A DNA stretch of 64,000 nucleotides, from assembly GCA_019638805.1 (NCBI GenBank), contig JAHBTA010000002.1, forward strand, positions 62,001-126,000, in the 5' to 3' direction. Source of the DNA: Microbacteriaceae bacterium (GTDB lineage: Bacteria > Actinomycetota > Actinomycetes > Actinomycetales > Microbacteriaceae). Positions 46,175 through 55,609 of this stretch are shown one piece after another. Within the stretch, counting starts at the first letter, position 1; each line of letters begins with the position of its first letter. The notes beneath the pieces are model-generated. The model saw nothing but the letters and a program-made list of their open reading frames with translations, was not told the DNA's origin and searched no databases. Both the position numbers and the translations under genes were made by a program.

Positions 46175-47731
46175 CTATTCGCCGGCGTAGAACCGGGCGA
46201 TCCTCTCCCGTGCAGCGGGGGCGTCGTAGATCAGCACGTCGCGGGCGTCGTCGCAGCATTCCACGCGGTCGGGCTCACCGAAGCGCTCCACGAGGAGCGT
46301 CTCGTCGATGGGCAGCTCGTCGCCCGCCCGATTGATGTAGAAGAAGGCGCCCCCGTCCGTGCGCGCGGTCGCGCGATTCGCCAGCCACCCGTTGGGCGTC
46401 CCGTCCGGGAGGATCGGGATGAGACGGACCCCCGTCGCCGACGGCAGGGACAGCCGTCGCGCATCCGAGAACGTCGCGTAGCCGATCATGCCGGGCACGG
46501 CGTCGTCCAGGCACACGGTCTCCGGCGTGCGATAGCCGTCGTACCGACCCCAGCCACCGAGGTTCGTCGGAAGGCCCGTCGCGATCAGCACGACGACGAG
46601 CGCCGCCGCGCCGGCCCCGAGCGCAGCGGGCCGCACCGGACGGGGCAGCGCCAGCAGAACGAGCGCGTACGGCAGGATCAGCACGGGCCAGAAGTAGTAG
46701 TAGTGCGTGATCATCATGAGGTAGGTCGCGCCGAGCCCGCCGAGCGGCACCGTCCCGAGCATGACGACGACGAGCAGGCGCCGATCCGGTGCCGGCCCGC
46801 GCCGGAGCCAGGCGACCGCGGCCCAGACCGCCCCGGCCAGGCACGCCGCCGCGAGCACGACCCCCATGACGAGGATCACCCCCGCCGCGGGATCCCTGGC
46901 CTGATACGCGTAGTACGGCCCGATCGCCGCGAGCCGGCGCGCGAAGACCTCCGGGTCGACATAGGTGAACGGTGAGGTGCCCTGGAGGGGGCTGAACGCG
47001 AACCGCAGTACGAGCGCGCCGAGCAGCAGCGCCCCGACCGTCACCGCGGGGCGCACGGCGGGGCGCCACCCCCGGCGGATCACGAGCAGCACGAGCGCGG
47101 CCGCGGTCCCCGGGGCCGCGAACAGCAGAGCCAGGGGGTTCGAGGCGGCCGTGAGCGCGAGCGCGACACCGAGGGTGATGCGAGCGGGCCGGCCCCTGGC
47201 CAGCACGACCGCGGGCGCGGCGACGAGCGCCGCATACATCCCCAGGTAGTAGGTGGGGGCCAGGTGGAACGAGAGGATCCAGGACGTGCCGATGAGCGGC
47301 AGGACGAGCAGGGGCACGACGGCGACACCCGCGCGCATCACCGCCGAGGTGACCGGCGCCTCCGGGCCCAGGACCCGCGCCAGCAGTACCACGCACAGCA
47401 GCAGCAGAACGTTCGCGAGCACCGCCACCGCGATGTAGTACAGGTAGATCGAACCGCCCGAGACCGCGAAGGCGATGGCCGAGAGCGGCAACTCGGGAAA
47501 CACGTAGACCTGGGGCGAGAAGCTCCAGTCCAGTGGGCGGCCGGCCACCGCATCCTGCATGACCTGGAAGAGCGTCCCGTTGTCGCTCGACCGCAGCTCC
47601 CAGGTGATCGGCCAGGTGGCCGCGTCGGCGGGGTCGCCCCCCGCGCGCACGACGAAGACCAGGGCGGTGAGCGCGGCGACCACGAGCGCGGCGCCGACGA
47701 CGGAGAGGGCGCTACGTGTCGATGCGCTCAC
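46175..47731 (-). CDS. Polytopic membrane protein of unknown function
   Basis: 518 residues with about 11-12 membrane helices in the first 400, a first extracytoplasmic loop with TWELRSSDNGTLFQVMQD, and a soluble C-terminal domain of about 120 residues. The organisation resembles GT-C-type glycosyltransferases, but no catalytic motif could be identified with confidence. Its GTG start (47731) lies 20 bases inside the end of parE, so it is coupled to parE rather than to the sugar genes that follow. Confidence 0.7.
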   Translation of the reverse strand: MSASTRSALSVVGAALVVAALTALVFVVRAGGDPADAATWPITWELRSSDNGTLFQVMQDAVAGRPLDWSFSPQVYVFPELPLSAIAFAVSGGSIYLYYIAVAVLANVLLLLCVVLLARVLGPEAPVTSAVMRAGVAVVPLLVLPLIGTSWILSFHLAPTYYLGMYAALVAAPAVVLARGRPARITLGVALALTAASNPLALLFAAPGTAAALVLLVIRRGWRPAVRPAVTVGALLLGALVLRFAFSPLQGTSPFTYVDPEVFARRLAAIGPYYAYQARDPAAGVILVMGVVLAAACLAGAVWAAVAWLRRGPAPDRRLLVVVMLGTVPLGGLGATYLMMITHYYYFWPVLILPYALVLLALPRPVRPAALGAGAAALVVVLIATGLPTNLGGWGRYDGYRTPETVCLDDAVPGMIGYATFSDARRLSLPSATGVRLIPILPDGTPNGWLANRATARTDGGAFFYINRAGDELPIDETLLVERFGEPDRVECCDDARDVLIYDAPAARERIARFYAGE

Positions 47732-49838
47732 GGTCCAGACCCTGGCCCGCGATGATGAAGTCCTTGCGCGGTGCCACGTCGTTGCCCATGAGCAGCTCGA
47801 ACACCTCCCGCGCGCGATCCGCGTCGGCCATGGTGATCTTGCGCAGGGTGCGGTGCGCGCGACTCATGGTGGTCTCGGCGAGCTGATCGGCGTCCATCTC
47901 CCCCAGGCCCTTGTAGCGCTGGATGGGCTCCTGGTACTTCCGTCCGCCCTTGCGCAGCGTGCCCAGCACGGTGTGCAACTCGGCCTCGGAGTACGTGTAG
48001 ACGATGTCGTTAGGCTTGGCACCCGGATTCTGGATGATCACCCGGTGCAGCGGCGGCACGGCCGCGAAGACGCGCCCGGCCGTGATCATGTCCGGCATGT
48101 ACTTGTAGAACAGCGTCAGCAGCAGGGTGCGGATATGCGCGCCGTCGACATCGGCATCGCTCATGATGATGACCTTGCCGTAGCGCGCCTGGTCGAGATC
48201 GAAGGTGCGCCCCGAACCCGCGCCGATGACCTGGATGATCGAGGCGCACTCCGCGTTGCCGAGCATGTCGGTCAGCGAGGCCTTCTGCACGTTGAGGATC
48301 TTGCCGCGGATGGGCAGTAGCGCCTGGTACTCGCTGTCGCGCGCGAGCTTGGCGGTGCCGAGGGCCGAGTCGCCCTCGACGATGAAGAGCTCGGTGTCGC
48401 CGACCGTGGTCGAGCGGCAGTCCACGAGCTTCGCGGGCAGGGACGACGACTCGAGGGCGTTCTTTCGCCGCTGGGTCTCTTTGTGCGCGCGCGCCGAGAT
48501 GCGGCTCTTCATCTCGGCCACGATCTTGTCCAGGATCAGCGCCGACTGCGCCTTGTCGTCGCGCTTGGAACTCGTGAAGCGCTCCCCCATGCCCTTCGCG
48601 ATGGCGTTGGCGACGATGGCCCGCACAGCCGGGGTGCCCAGGACCTCCTTGGTCTGGCCCTCGAATTGCGGCTCGGGCAGGCGCACGGTGAGCACCGCGG
48701 TCAGGCCGGCCAGGACATCCTCTTTCTCGAGCTTGTCGTTGCCCGCCTTGAGCCGCCGCGCGTTCTTCTCGACCTCGGCGCGCAGGAACTTGAGCATGCC
48801 CTGCTCGAATCCGGCCTGGTGCGTGCCGCCCTTGGGCGTCGCGATGATGTTGACGAAGCTGCGGAACACCGTGTCGTACCCGGTGCCCCAGCGCAGCGCG
48901 ATGTCCACGGCGCATTCGCGCTCGAGCTCGGTGGCCACCATGTGGCCGTCGTCCTGCAGCACCGGCACTGTCTCACGGTAGGCACCGGTGCCCTGGATGC
49001 GCCAGGTCGCGGTCAGGGACTCGTCGGGCGCGAGGAAGTCGGCGAACTCGGAGATACCGCCCGCGAACCGGAACTGCTCGACGACCGGCTCGTCGCCGCG
49101 GTCGTCCTCGATGCGGATGCCGAGCCCGGGCACCAGGAACGCCGTCTGCCGCGCGCGCTCGGCCAGCTCCTCAGCCTGGAAGCTCGCCCCGCGCGTGAAG
49201 ACCTGCGGGTCCGCCCAGTACCGGATGCGGGTGCCGGTCACGCCCTTGCCCGCCTTTCCGACGACCCGCAGCTCGCTCGTCGAGACGAAGGGCGTGAACG
49301 GGGCGTCGGGACGCGGATGGGCCGGGTCGGCATCCTCGAAGACCCCCGGCTCGCCGCGGTGGAACGACATGGCCCAGGTCTTCCCGTCGCGGTCGACCTC
49401 GACGTCGAGCCGCTCGCTGAGCGCGTTGACCACGGACGCGCCCACGCCGTGCAGGCCCCCCGAGGCCGAGTACGAGCCCGAGCCGAACTTGCCGCCCGCG
49501 TGCAGCTTGGTGAAGACCACCTCGACACCGCTCAGACCCGTCTTGGGCTCGATGTCGACCGGGATGCCGCGGGCGCGGTCGCGCACCTCCACGCTCCCGT
49601 CGGGATGCAGCACGACATCGATGAGCTCGCCGTGGCCCGCGAGCGCCTCATCGACCGAGTTGTCGATGATCTCCCACAGGCAGTGCATGAGGCCGCGCGA
49701 ATCCGTCGAGCCGATGTACATGCCGGGGCGCTTGCGCACCGCCTCCAGGCCCTCGAGCACGCTCAGGTGACGGGCGGAGTAGGTCTCGGCGCTCGCCACG
49801 GGGCTCCTCTGAGATCGGGGAATCGGCCGGATGGCCAT
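47712..49838 (-). CDS. parE: DNA topoisomerase IV subunit B
   Basis: 708 residues, GHKL ATPase plus TOPRIM. N-terminal VLEGLEAVRKRPGMYIGST, ATP-binding EIIDNSVDEALAGH and GGLHGVGASVVNALS; the TOPRIM acidic motif ELFIVEGDSALGTAK and IIMSDADVDGAHI are intact. It lacks the insert typical of many GyrB proteins. It partners ParC (30416-32887). A TAGGCT box ends five bases before ATG 49838, suggesting a near-leaderless transcript. The 3' end overlaps the next gene by 20 bases. Confidence 0.92.
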   Translation of the reverse strand: MAIRPIPRSQRSPVASAETYSARHLSVLEGLEAVRKRPGMYIGSTDSRGLMHCLWEIIDNSVDEALAGHGELIDVVLHPDGSVEVRDRARGIPVDIEPKTGLSGVEVVFTKLHAGGKFGSGSYSASGGLHGVGASVVNALSERLDVEVDRDGKTWAMSFHRGEPGVFEDADPAHPRPDAPFTPFVSTSELRVVGKAGKGVTGTRIRYWADPQVFTRGASFQAEELAERARQTAFLVPGLGIRIEDDRGDEPVVEQFRFAGGISEFADFLAPDESLTATWRIQGTGAYRETVPVLQDDGHMVATELERECAVDIALRWGTGYDTVFRSFVNIIATPKGGTHQAGFEQGMLKFLRAEVEKNARRLKAGNDKLEKEDVLAGLTAVLTVRLPEPQFEGQTKEVLGTPAVRAIVANAIAKGMGERFTSSKRDDKAQSALILDKIVAEMKSRISARAHKETQRRKNALESSSLPAKLVDCRSTTVGDTELFIVEGDSALGTAKLARDSEYQALLPIRGKILNVQKASLTDMLGNAECASIIQVIGAGSGRTFDLDQARYGKVIIMSDADVDGAHIRTLLLTLFYKYMPDMITAGRVFAAVPPLHRVIIQNPGAKPNDIVYTYSEAELHTVLGTLRKGGRKYQEPIQRYKGLGEMDADQLAETTMSRAHRTLRKITMADADRAREVFELLMGNDVAPRKDFIIAGQGLDRERIDT

Positions 49839-49990: not shown

Positions 49991-50218
49991 ATGTCGCAGA
50001 TCACCGACACCGTCGATGAGCTGGAGCTCGACGCCCCCCTCACCGCTTTCGACCGCTGCGACAGTTGCGGCGCGCAGGCCTATATCCGGGTGACCCTGGC
50101 GTCCGGCGACCTGCTGTTCTGCGCCCACCACGGCGCCAGGTTCAAGGACAAGCTCGCCCCCACCGCGATCAACTGGCACGACGAGACCGCGCGCCTGCAC
50201 GAGGCGCCCGCCGACTGA
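49991..50218 (+). CDS. DUF7455 zinc-ribbon protein
   Basis: 75 residues with RCDSCGAQAYIRVTLASGDL and FCAHHGARF, giving a CxxC...CxxH metal site, matching the small actinobacterial DUF7455 family found beside parE and sigA. A GAGGAGG SD lies 7-13 bases before ATG 49991. Its function is unknown. It is divergent from parE and ends 23 bases before the racemase-like genes. Confidence 0.85.
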   Translation: MSQITDTVDELELDAPLTAFDRCDSCGAQAYIRVTLASGDLLFCAHHGARFKDKLAPTAINWHDETARLHEAPAD

Positions 50219-50241: not shown

Positions 50242-50922
50242 GTGGCCGGCATCCGGCGCGTCGCGCGCATCGACCTCGAGGCCCTCGCGAGCAATCTCGC
50301 GGGGGCCTCTGCCTCGTTCCTGGACGCGCGCGCCGACGCGTACGGCCATAATCTCGCGCTCGTCGGCCCGGTCGCACGGGACGCGGGAATCGTCCGGGTC
50401 CTGGTCTCCGACGACCGGGATGCCGCCCTTGCCTCCGCCGCCGGGCTCACCCCGGTCGTGGGCCGGCTCGCACCCCCGGACGTCGGTGATCTCGCCGGCG
50501 CTGCAGCCTACGGGCTGGAGTCGGGCGGGCGACCGGTCATGACCCTCGTGGGCGAGGTCATCGCCGTCAAGCACGTCGGCGCGGGCGCCGGGGTGTCCTA
50601 CGGCTACACCTACCGCACCCCCGCTCCTACGCATCTCGCCCTCGTGGGGCTCGGCTACGCCGACGGGGTGCCGCGCATCGCCGGGGGTCGGGCGCACGTC
50701 GCCATCGACGGACGCGCGCTGCCCCTGGTCGGACGCATCGCCATGGACCAGTTCGTGGTCGACTGCGGCGATGACCCGGTCGGGCTCGGGGACGAGGTCG
50801 CCCTGTTCGGATCGGGTTCGGTCGTCCCGTCCGCCGGGGAATGGGCGGGGTGGACGACCCGCGACGCGCTCGCGGTGACCGCGGGACTCGGCCCCCGCAT
50901 CCACCGGGAGGCGCGTGCGTGA
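50242..50922 (+). CDS. Truncated alanine-racemase homologue with the C-terminal catalytic half
   Basis: 226 residues instead of about 370. The N-terminus keeps the start of the barrel (RIDLEALASNLAGAS) and the ADAYGH loop, but Arg30 stands where the PLP lysine should be and most of the barrel is missing. The C-terminal domain is well preserved: GVSYGYTY (Y120, the family's catalytic Tyr), LGYADGVPR and GRIAMDQ (M168, D169). Alone it should not bind PLP. TAGATT ends six bases before GTG 50242, so the mRNA is probably leaderless. It overlaps the next racemase by 4 bases (GTGA). Confidence 0.85.
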   Translation: MAGIRRVARIDLEALASNLAGASASFLDARADAYGHNLALVGPVARDAGIVRVLVSDDRDAALASAAGLTPVVGRLAPPDVGDLAGAAAYGLESGGRPVMTLVGEVIAVKHVGAGAGVSYGYTYRTPAPTHLALVGLGYADGVPRIAGGRAHVAIDGRALPLVGRIAMDQFVVDCGDDPVGLGDEVALFGSGSVVPSAGEWAGWTTRDALAVTAGLGPRIHREARA

Positions 50923-51980
50923 CCGGACCGACGCTCATCCTGGACCTCGCCGGTTTCCGCGAGAACGTGCGCACGCTCGCCGCGATGGTCGCCCCCGCGC
51001 GCACCATGCTCGCGGTCAAGGCCGACGCCTACGGCCACGGGGCGGCCGAGTTCGCGACCGCCGCACTCGAGGGCGGGGCGGATTCGCTCGCGGTTCTCGA
51101 GGTGCCCGCCGGAATCCGGCTGCGCGAGGTGGGCTTCACGGTTCCGCTCTTCGCGTGGCTGCACGGGCGGGACACCGACTTTGCGGCCGCCATCACGGCG
51201 GACATCGATCTGGGTGTGTCCTCGATGGTCGAGCTGGAGCGCATCGCGGCCGCCGTGCGGACAGCCGGGTCCCCCGCGTCGGTGCACCTCAAGATCGACA
51301 CCGGGCTGCACCGCAACGGCGCGAGCCCGGAGGACTGGCCCGCCCTGGTGTCCGCCGCGCGCGACGCCGAGCGCGAGGGGCTCGTCCGGGTCGTCGCGCT
51401 CTGGTCGCACCTCGCGGATGCGTCCCCCGCGGACGACGAGGCCGCACTCGCGGAGTTCCGCGCGGCCGTCGCCGTGGCGGCGGGGCTCGGGGTCGAGCCG
51501 CCTCTGCTGCACCTCGCGGCCTCCTCGGCCGGGATCCGCGAGCCCGAGGCTCGCCTGGGGCTCGTGCGCTTCGGCATCGCGGCCTACGGAATCTCGCCCT
51601 TCGACGACGTCGACGGGCGGGGGCTGGGCCTCCGGCCCGTCATGACCTTCCGGGCGCCGGTGCTCGCACTCGAGGACGGCGTCGCGGTGCTGGCCGCCGG
51701 CTCGGGCGACGGTGTCGCCCCGGTCACCGCGGCCGACGGCGCCGCCGTGCTGCTCGAGGGCGTGCGGCGGCCGGTCCTCGGCGTCGACGTCGACACCATG
51801 ACCGTCGGCGTCGACGCTACCGCCGGGGGCCGGGTGACACCGGGCGATGTGGCTACAGTCTTCGGCCCCGGCGACGACGGCGAGCCGACCGCCGAGGAAT
51901 GGGCGGCGTGGGCTGGCACGATCGGCGACGAGATCGTCGCGCGCGCCTCCCGCCGTGCGGCCCGCGTCATCCGCCGCTGA
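50919..51980 (+). CDS. alr: Alanine-racemase homologue with the PLP-binding half only
   Basis: 353 residues. The barrel has all expected residues: K34 in AVKADAYGHG (PLP lysine), R132 in TGLHRNG, H164 in WSHLADAS, SSAG near 202-205 and R217 in VRFGIAAYG. The C-terminal domain, however, lacks the VSYG segment with the catalytic Tyr and has GVDVDT in place of GRICMDQ, so Tyr and Met of the second-subunit face are missing. These are exactly what the upstream homologue keeps. GTG 50919 overlaps its stop, so the two are co-translated. A heterodimer is likely (inference). Confidence 0.88.
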   Translation: MTGPTLILDLAGFRENVRTLAAMVAPARTMLAVKADAYGHGAAEFATAALEGGADSLAVLEVPAGIRLREVGFTVPLFAWLHGRDTDFAAAITADIDLGVSSMVELERIAAAVRTAGSPASVHLKIDTGLHRNGASPEDWPALVSAARDAEREGLVRVVALWSHLADASPADDEAALAEFRAAVAVAAGLGVEPPLLHLAASSAGIREPEARLGLVRFGIAAYGISPFDDVDGRGLGLRPVMTFRAPVLALEDGVAVLAAGSGDGVAPVTAADGAAVLLEGVRRPVLGVDVDTMTVGVDATAGGRVTPGDVATVFGPGDDGEPTAEEWAAWAGTIGDEIVARASRRAARVIRR

Positions 51981-51984
51981 GGCG

Positions 51985-52701
51985 CTACCTGGGGAGCGCG
52001 GGCAGGCCCAGCCGGGCGCGGATCGCGTCACGTGAGCGCCGCGCGTAGTCGTCCACTTCGGCCCGGCGGGCGTCGGGCTCGTGGCCGGTGACTCCGGCGA
52101 GCTCCGCGGCGAGGTCGAGCAGGCGATCGGCCCACACCGGGTTCATGGGCAGCAGCGGCCCGTGCAGGTTGGTCCCGATGAGCCCGCCCGCGATGAGGCC
52201 GTCCTCCGCGCCCGAGGCGAGCCGGGCGAACGGGGCGACCCCGGCATCCCGTGCGTCGTCGGCACCGAAGTTCACGAAGCCCGCGACCTCGCCCAGCTCG
52301 GTCTCCCCCGCGACCTCGCCCACCACGCGCTCCGGCGAGACCCGCGCGGTCGAGGGCAGCACTCCGGCACCCGCCGAGACCGAACCGTCGAGCTCGGTCA
52401 CCTCGCGGCCGAGCAATTGCCACCCGGCGGCGATCGCGAGGAACGGCACCCCGGCATCCGCCCAGGAGCGCAGCTTCTTCGCGTGCCGGGCGATGTCGGC
52501 GTGCAGGGGCTGCCGGGCCGATGCCGGACCACTGCCGATGTGCACGAGGTGCGCGGTGGACGGGAGGGCATCCCCCGCGCCCACGTCGATCACCTCGAGC
52601 GGCATTCCCCGCCATCCCGCGCGGACGCGCAGTGCCGTCACATTGCCGACATCGCCGTTGATCCCGAGTTCTCGCGGGTAGAGGTGCACGAGCGTGATCA
52701 C
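51985..52701 (-). CDS. gatD: GatD-like glutamine amidotransferase homologue without the catalytic cysteine
   Basis: 238 residues, GatD family by overall alignment: LYPRELGINGDVGNVTALRVRA, AIAAGWQLLGRE and GTNLHGPLLPMNP. In active GatD the nucleophile is the Cys of ICGGY; here A91 stands there (codon 52431-52429). H180 remains. The GGGxDxxQ motif is also altered (GSGPASARQ). It therefore should not release ammonia from glutamine. GTG 52701 overlaps the MurT-like stop (GTGA), with GGAGGG upstream, so the two are coupled as in canonical murT-gatD. Confidence 0.87.
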   Translation of the reverse strand: MITLVHLYPRELGINGDVGNVTALRVRAGWRGMPLEVIDVGAGDALPSTAHLVHIGSGPASARQPLHADIARHAKKLRSWADAGVPFLAIAAGWQLLGREVTELDGSVSAGAGVLPSTARVSPERVVGEVAGETELGEVAGFVNFGADDARDAGVAPFARLASGAEDGLIAGGLIGTNLHGPLLPMNPVWADRLLDLAAELAGVTGHEPDARRAEVDDYARRSRDAIRARLGLPALPR

Positions 52702-53972
52702 GACGCGCCCTCCAACTCGCGATAGCCCAGTCGCTTGCGGATGAGCATCATCTGCTCGTAGTTCACGACCATGGTCTTGCGACCGGTGGCGGGTGGCGGC
52801 AGGGCGAGGAAGCGATCGAGCGCCGGGCCGAGCTCGGGCACGACCGCGTCCACGCGAACGCCCTCGTAGGCGAAACGCGTCGCGAATTGCCAGCACTTGG
52901 TGCCCGTGACGACATCGACGCGCCGGATCTTCGACAGGTCGGTTCCGTACACCCAGGACGGGTCGGGCGTGCCCTCGTCGACCGCGACGAGCACCTGCTC
53001 GGGCGGCTCCGGCAGCGCGTCGAGGTTGACCTGCATACTCGGCGGGTTCTTCATCATGAGCAGCTCGAGCTCCTCGCCGGCCGGCGTGCGGATGACCTCC
53101 CCGCGCCCGTAGACCGCGGCCATCGAGCCGACGCCCCGCGCAGCGGCCGCGAGATCGAAGCCGTCGCCCAGGAGTGCGCGCGCCATCGCGAACGCGGCCG
53201 TCGCATCCACCGCGTTGTGCAGCCCGCGTGCCGGCAGCATGACATCGACCCCCACGCCGTCCACCTCGATCACGGCGACCTCGTCGTGCGCCGAGACGAG
53301 CCGGGTGGATGCCGCGATCGGCGCCGCCTGGGACGTCGCGAGCGCCGGGTTGTCGCCCCTCGCGAGCCAGGCGGACTCTGCCAGCAGCTTCGGGTCCGTG
53401 GCGAAGGCGCTCAGCTCGGCGCCCCGATCGGCGAGTCGGGAGGCCAGCGCCACCAGGTTGTGGTCGTCGGCGTTCACCACCAGGTGACGGGTCGCGACCG
53501 CGGCGAATGACTCGAGCATGCCCACCACGCGATCCGGCTCGTGGAAGCGGTTGAGCTGGTCGACCTGCACGTTGATGAGCAGGACGCTGTGCGGGACGAG
53601 GCGCTTCGCCAGCTGCGGGCCGAACGCCTCGTCCACCTCGAGCACCGCGATCGTGTTGCGCAGCCGCCCGTCGAGGGGTGCGGTGGCGAGGATCGCGGAC
53701 GCGATGCCCTGCGGGAGGTTGGCGCCGCTGGGGTTGGTGAAGACGTCCACCCCGTTCTCGCGCAGCGCGCTGACCAGCATCTGCGTCGTGGTCGACTTGC
53801 CGTTGGACCCCGAGACGAAGACCACCCCGAGGGGGAGGTTCTCGACCGCGCGCTGCAGGAAGCGCGGCGCGATGAGCAGGGCCACCCGGCCGGGGAACGC
53901 GGAGCCGCCCCCGCGCAGGCGCGTGAGCACCCGGGCCAGCCGGCCGGCGAGCACCGCCAGCGCCGTGCGCAC
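52698..53972 (-). CDS. murT: MurT-like Mur ligase homologue
   Basis: 424 residues, MurT family (Mur ligase central domain plus DUF1727): P-loop VSGSNGKSTTT, AVLEVDEAFG, LLINVQVDQLNRFHE, KNPPSMQ and DPSWVYGTD. Departures from canonical MurT: no four-cysteine ribbon between residues about 190 and 225, R lost in the FRDQ motif (VQVDQ), KNPxG changed to KNPPS, and one Asp of the SWIYDADF motif replaced by Gly. Canonical MurT amidates D-Glu of lipid II with GatD. Here the pair is likely repurposed. GTG 53972 starts 5 bases after sigA. Confidence 0.88.
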   Translation of the reverse strand: MRTALAVLAGRLARVLTRLRGGGSAFPGRVALLIAPRFLQRAVENLPLGVVFVSGSNGKSTTTQMLVSALRENGVDVFTNPSGANLPQGIASAILATAPLDGRLRNTIAVLEVDEAFGPQLAKRLVPHSVLLINVQVDQLNRFHEPDRVVGMLESFAAVATRHLVVNADDHNLVALASRLADRGAELSAFATDPKLLAESAWLARGDNPALATSQAAPIAASTRLVSAHDEVAVIEVDGVGVDVMLPARGLHNAVDATAAFAMARALLGDGFDLAAAARGVGSMAAVYGRGEVIRTPAGEELELLMMKNPPSMQVNLDALPEPPEQVLVAVDEGTPDPSWVYGTDLSKIRRVDVVTGTKCWQFATRFAYEGVRVDAVVPELGPALDRFLALPPPATGRKTMVVNYEQMMLIRKRLGYRELEGAS

Positions 53973-53977
53973 CCGGC

Positions 53978-55609
<1,632 letters not shown>

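Follow-up and report, generated by a model that had tools for sequence, protein, structure and literature searches.

A putative B-type peptidoglycan cross-bridge module in a Microbacteriaceae bacterium: a MurT/GatD-like pair lacking the glutaminase cysteine beside a split racemase

The four genes between rpoD and parE

The locus analysed here lies in a 64,000-nucleotide stretch of DNA (hereafter the window; contig JAHBTA010000002.1, positions 62,001 to 126,000) from the Microbacteriaceae bacterium assembly GCA_019638805.1, and consists of two gene pairs that we regard as a candidate module for the cross-bridge of B-type peptidoglycan. As listed in Table 1, a split racemase (alrA and alrB) is encoded on one strand and a MurT/GatD-like pair on the other; the two pairs converge with 4 bases between them, and within each pair the coding sequences overlap by a few bases, the GTG start of alrB overlapping the alrA stop. 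The module is flanked by rpoD and a parE-type gene, plus a small DUF7455 gene, and a separate full-length alr that keeps Tyr354 is found elsewhere in the genome. The arrangement is not a chance one, given the strong Pfam, NCBIfam and Protein Data Bank (PDB) matches of its products and its recurrence in dozens of genomes. In agreement with the original prediction, which knew of no account of such a module, no description of it, nor of enzymes linking the bridge to D-Glu, was found in the open-access literature searched.

Table 1. Features of the window and of two loci in which the ligase pair is replaced
Feature	Position	Strand	Description
alrA	50242..50922	+	Racemase subunit; Ala_racemase_C domain, catalytic Tyr120 (codon at 50599); barrel remnant, Arg30 (codon at 50329) at Lys39 equivalent
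alrB	50919..51980	+	Racemase subunit; full pyridoxal phosphate (PLP) barrel, Lys34 (codon at 51018); no Tyr265 segment; Asp337 (codon at 51927) at Tyr354 equivalent
gatD-like	51985..52701	-	Glutaminase fold of class I; catalytic Cys replaced by Ala91 (codon 52429-52431); His180 and Arg125 retained
murT-like	52698..53972	-	Mur ligase middle domain and MurT C-terminal domain; catalytic residues retained; Zn ribbon absent; Val137 is the gate Arg135 equivalent
rpoD (sigma factor)	53978..55609	-	Conserved slot border
DUF7455 small protein gene	49991..50218	+	Conserved border
parE (type II topoisomerase subunit B family gene, so called here)	47712..49838	-	Conserved other slot border
CofE-like and ATP-grasp genes	L300:4807-6588, L303:7722-9513		Replace murT-gatD beside alrA-alrB

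The original prediction that the pair has lost its glutaminase cysteine was borne out, since in alignment the catalytic Cys94 of Staphylococcus aureus GatD corresponds to Ala91 of the GatD-like protein; relatives carry Gly, Ala, Ser, Asn or Thr at this site, and the equivalents of His189 and Arg128 are kept in the window. The MurT-like protein retains the P-loop (GSNGKST) and the equivalents of Asn85, the acidic pair and Asp349, and has Val137 in place of the gate-loop Arg135. In Streptococcus pneumoniae MurT, the loop formed by residues 135-143 is located at the gate opposite the GatD site, which Arg135 closes in one model, and the Arg of GatD (Arg128) has been proposed to capture glutamine (PMC6085368). 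The Zn-ribbon cysteines are also missing from the MurT-like protein, a loss discarded as a marker because many canonical actinobacterial MurTs have few cysteines too. Pfam assigns GATase_3 to the GatD-like protein, and Mur_ligase_M with a sub-threshold MurT_C to the MurT-like one. The AlphaFold model of the former (mean predicted local distance difference test, pLDDT, 94) matches GatD 5n9m best in the PDB, with a template modelling (TM) score of 0.86; that of the latter (pLDDT 84) has MurT chains as its top matches, with TM scores of only about 0.5-0.6, perhaps owing to a domain arrangement differing from that of MurT.

The neighbouring racemase pair, which the original prediction had called unusual, is truly split. 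Ala_racemase_C is assigned to AlrA, and Ala_racemase_N with a weak C domain to AlrB. In the pairs read, AlrB carries the equivalents of Lys39, Tyr43, Arg136, His166, Ser204 and Arg219 and lacks Tyr265, and AlrA carries those of Tyr265, Tyr/Phe284 and Met312 and lacks Lys39; among the residues expected of Alr, Lys39 and the barrel set are thus found in AlrB only, and Tyr265', Tyr284', Met312' and Asp313' in AlrA only. This Lys/Tyr complementarity holds in every pair read, with minor deviations in a genome of only 0.927303 Mb (G015), the size of that of Tropheryma whipplei Twist. Two Microbacterium-related metagenome-assembled genomes have natural AlrA-AlrB fusions in a single open frame (L208:8076-9725 and L210:8148-9770). 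The Tyr354 motif, GTINYE in ordinary Alr, reads GTIGDE or GTIGEE in AlrB.

The NCBIfam equivalog cut-offs are widely missed by the ligase pair (98.7 of 800 bits for MurT; 88.5 of 450 and 44.9 of 400 bits for GatD), and AlrA and AlrB each score below that of TIGR00492, although both are closest to alanine racemases. Judged by sequence, both pairs clearly derive from their parent families, and neither qualifies as a member.

Distribution of the pairs and occupants of the slot

Among 120 genomes of the window's family, GatD-like matches were found in 89 and MurT profile matches in 100. About 100 family loci were read, which fell into the classes Ia (that of the window), Iq, Ic and Ib of type I and a distinct type II with an FTHN motif; canonical Cys pairs occur in 12 genomes. 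The cysteine is absent from every type I and type II GatD read, and such pairs occur throughout the Microbacteriaceae. In residue tallies in which some genomes were counted twice, Cys was present in none of 183 type I GatD loci, compared with 81 of 81 canonical ones, and Arg128 was retained in 178 of the 183; the gate Arg135 was found in 0 of 101 type I MurTs and in 58 of 58 canonical MurTs. The P-loop, Asn85, the acidic pair and Asp349 are kept in type I MurTs. The idea that Cys-less GatDs are scattered over the Actinomycetota was rejected: none was seen in the 44 readable pairs of other families from 149 genomes of the order, nor in 19 further readable pairs at the scale of the phylum. All 63 readable other-family pairs retain Cys; the finding by which the original prediction would have been refuted, a Cys-less pair in another lineage with an A-type wall, did not appear among them.

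In a quick MurT tree, with SH-aLRT (Shimodaira-Hasegawa-like approximate likelihood ratio test) support and no bootstrap, classes Ia, Iq, Ic and Ib form one clade (SH-aLRT 100), and type II stands apart on a long branch. This separation suggests that the cysteine was lost twice, at the same chromosomal slot. Four type II loci (L038, L099, L101 and L102) combine a Cys-less GatD carrying FTHN with a MurT that has a Zn ribbon; they lie in the rpoD-parE slot, where an ATP-grasp gene comes next and a racemase is missing. As side observations, in two genomes (G054 and G066; L035 and L036) the slot has a Cys-less pair and a canonical one with Cys lies at another locus; the one same-genus genome in the sample carries, on a small contig (L034, G041:C246), an additional type Ib pair, which may be foreign, as this assembly has 6% contamination; and a record titled Planococcus sp. 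APC 4015 holds a Microbacterium-type locus (L202) with 72% protein identity to the query, and is probably misnamed or contaminated.

Many type I copies lack the GatD His189 equivalent, retained in the window, as might be expected if the ligase pair and the racemase pair were decaying, functionless relics. We consider this extremely improbable, since the P-loop, Asn85, Asp349 and Arg128 are conserved, the losses in the two racemase subunits are complementary, natural fusions exist, and the genes persist in a 0.93-Mb genome.

The Cys-less classes nearly always share one chromosomal position, rpoD-parE: in the flanking sequence read, rpoD was present at 28 of 29 Ib loci, 7 of 8 type II loci and 22 of 25 Ia loci. 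Canonical pairs were never there (0 of 12 in the family, 0 of 44 outside it and 0 of 2 second copies). No recognisable module was found between rpoD and parE in the canonical-only genomes G016, G096, G014, G047 and G070 (G003 partly), nor in G202 and G230 of other families. In Microbacterium the pair was detected in 21 of the 119 genomes sampled, including M. esteraromaticum, M. arabinogalactanolyticum, M. resistens, M. aoyamense and M. ginsengisoli, with alrA-alrB directly behind it in 18 of the 20 carriers read. Ten non-carriers read also have alrA-alrB, and in the three that were gene-called (L297, L300 and L303) the racemase pair occupies the rpoD-parE slot, where genes for a CofE-like ligase (PF01996) and an ATP-grasp protein (PF14397) take the place of murT-gatD. 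All 18 further non-carriers have a CofE-like gene and six carriers lack it, apart from one weak match (4e-4); in the family sample 17 genomes have it, of which 16 lack MurT/GatD (Fisher 1.3e-13), and four genomes have neither. Microbacterium genomes with a single alr (L317, L318 and L320) show a CofE-like gene with apparently two tandem ATP-grasp genes and no split racemase. Two other arrangements were observed: in G053 (L040 and L343) a divergent Cys-less MurT/GatD-like pair directly adjoins a CofE-like gene outside the slot (G053:C1:612191-615889), and the slot itself holds an alrA-alrB pair; in G049 and G118 (L375 and L376), of one genus, the slot genes resemble an ATP-binding cassette (ABC) transporter and a binding protein, with no ligase.

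At least three ligase systems thus occupy the slot, and the MurT/GatD-like pair is therefore not required for every B-type wall. The expectation that the four genes would track B-type walls stood only in part: in our sample the Cys-less pairs are confined to the Microbacteriaceae, but some family members have canonical pairs only and most Microbacterium use the CofE-like and ATP-grasp proteins. The pair was accordingly rejected as a mark of all B-type members, as 82% of sampled Microbacterium lack it, and so was a constant association of racemase and ligase, since the racemase occurs with the CofE-like system as well and most Ib and II carriers lack it.

Extra racemases go with the window-like ligase: more than one Alr-type gene is present in 36 of 37 genomes whose MurT is window-like (Ia and Iq), compared with 6 of 48 with Ib, II or canonical pairs. 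Those type I genomes read that lack the split pair have mostly two full-length tandem racemases, one with Tyr (rarely Trp) and the other with Asp or Glu at position 354, Asp in Clavibacter and Glu in Curtobacterium flaccumfaciens (G105, identical to L250); the wall of Curtobacterium contains D-ornithine (D-Orn). The similarity of both subunits to alanine racemases would also fit a split but ordinary enzyme serving as a back-up of alr. This appears very unlikely to us, considering that the genome already has a full-length alr with Tyr354, that Asp or Glu stands at 354 in the AlrB proteins read and in most of the full-length tandem copies, and that the extra racemase tracks the ligase type. The suggestion that the split racemase supplies a D-amino acid for the bridge hence gains from these modified racemases and is weakened by their being separable from the ligase.

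A possible route to the B-type bridge

In B-type walls the α-carboxyl of D-Glu is used for the cross-link, which its amidation would block; bridge formulas include Gly-D-Orn and direct D-Orn. This linkage is presumed for the window organism from its family, as represented by Microbacterium, Clavibacter and Curtobacterium. We hypothesize, with a probability of about 0.64, that the four genes constitute a B-type cross-bridge module in which AlrA/AlrB provide a D-diamino acid and the MurT-like ligase couples it to this carboxyl, with a GatD-like partner that is no longer a glutaminase. AlrA and AlrB would form a heterodimer with one working site, made of the AlrB barrel with its PLP-lysine and the AlrA domain with Tyr265', which may racemise 2,4-diaminobutyrate (Dab) or ornithine, perhaps Dab in the window to judge from the Asp at 354. 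The MurT-like protein, using ATP, would activate the D-Glu α-carboxyl of the wall precursor in the fashion of MurT, and the attacking amine would be the D-diamino acid, not ammonia. The GatD-like protein would produce no ammonia and act as an obligatory partner, which may hold the incoming amino acid through its retained Arg125.

Previous studies offer a precedent for such a partner. In S. aureus, the C94S and C94G variants of GatD abolish glutamine-dependent amidation (PMC6113224; PMC3266927), MurT with the C94G variant is still active with free NH3 at pH 8.5 and shows no activity at pH 7.5, and the concerted action of both subunits is needed (PMC3266927). A dead GatD can therefore be conceived as the partner of a ligase that takes an outside amine. 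The activity at pH 8.5 could also mean that the window pair has lost the glutaminase alone and still amidates D-Glu with free ammonia. This seems distinctly unlikely, as the same enzyme is inactive at pH 7.5, the gate Arg is gone in all 101 type I MurTs, amidation would block the very carboxyl cross-linked in B-type walls, and, at the slot, other amide ligases alternate with the pair and a racemase accompanies it. The original prediction of an amino acid in place of ammonia is thereby supported in its direction, with a family-confined Cys loss at one locus, a lost ammonia gate and a retained acceptor site; the chemistry itself we infer.

The named carriers Clavibacter (Dab), Agreia (L-Dab/D-Orn) and Rhodoluna (D-Dab bridge) are all B-type. 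Clavibacter nebraskensis NCPPB 2581 (G034) has a B2-gamma wall with Dab (PMC5358740), the B2-gamma wall of Agreia has L-Dab and D-Orn and that of Frondihabitans is B2-beta (PMC5945732), and Microbacterium species contain D-Orn, L-Lys or Dab (PMC10757982), of which the L-Lys ones may be the species with a single alr. Pontimonas salivibrio (PMC6106888) is also part of the family sample (G030). Rhodoluna lacicola (G010), described as B2-beta/B10, yields Mur-Gly, Gly-D-Glu and D-Ala-D-Dab peptides, read as type B2-beta (PMC4156110), and carries a type Ib pair with a single ordinary alr.

Glycine, present in the walls of Subtercola and Rhodoluna, raises the alternative that D-Glu receives glycine or an L-amino acid from the ligase, with the racemase needed at another step, for instance for an additional bridge residue. 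In agreement with this, a single alr is usual among carriers of types Ib and II, and the racemase is found with the CofE-like system too; we find it unlikely, however, since we take the Rhodoluna peptides to place Gly at stem position 1 and D-Dab in the bridge, and window-like pairs lack the extra ATP-grasp gene expected for a two-residue bridge.

Several observations weigh against a D-diamino acid module. As Rhodoluna combines a D-Dab bridge with a single ordinary alr, its D-Dab must come from elsewhere. Most Microbacterium lack the MurT/GatD-like pair, the racemase lies at the slot without MurT in non-carriers and in G053, and in some family members with canonical Cys pairs only the slot is empty. 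The second alr of G017 (L358 and L359) lacks the Asp/Glu pattern at 354, a residue which we take to belong to the Lys39 site and to affect specificity, its monomer being likewise assumed. The genome counts are phylogenetically non-independent, type I being one clade, and the named chemotypes come from a handful of papers.

A broader possibility, to which we give even odds, is that rpoD-parE is a modular slot for B-type bridge enzymes, with interchangeable ligases (either of two MurT/GatD types that became glutaminase-dead independently, or a CofE-like protein with one or two ATP-grasp proteins) and a heterodimeric, single-site racemase where the bridge has a D-diamino acid, so that its content would predict wall chemistry. 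B-type cross-linkage has been a defining trait in Microbacteriaceae taxonomy for decades, and the enzymes joining the bridge to D-Glu can now be tested with a small gene set. If true, our hypothesis would show an ammonia-channelling complex turned into an amino acid ligase and a natural example of a racemase divided into complementary halves, and would make wall chemistry readable from genomes. The plant pathogen Clavibacter also has the ligase pair, and the 0.93-Mb genome noted above retains both pairs.

Comparison with known systems

The lipid II isoglutaminyl synthase MurT/GatD of S. aureus, S. pneumoniae and Mycobacterium tuberculosis shares with the window pair its folds, the overlapping gene pair and the residues for ATP and the acceptor carboxylate; the window pair differs in lacking the catalytic Cys and the gate Arg135, in its chromosomal locus and in the racemase alongside. 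Archaeal MurT/GatD and MurT-like proteins of pseudomurein makers represent another lineage with relatives in wall synthesis, in which GatD is absent where only a MurT-like protein occurs (PMC11915815), whereas the window retains a Cys-less GatD-like partner. Members of the F420-0:gamma-glutamyl ligase family (CofE, PF01996) and of ATPgrasp_ST (PF14397), which fill the slot in genomes without MurT/GatD, belong to families other than MurT/GatD, and the literature searched ascribes to them no role in the wall. Compared with alanine racemase (Alr, TIGR00492; PF01168 and PF00842), AlrA and AlrB combined have both domains and the active-site residues; unlike in Alr, the catalytic residues lie on two chains, so that only one hybrid site would be workable, and Tyr354 is replaced by Asp or Glu.

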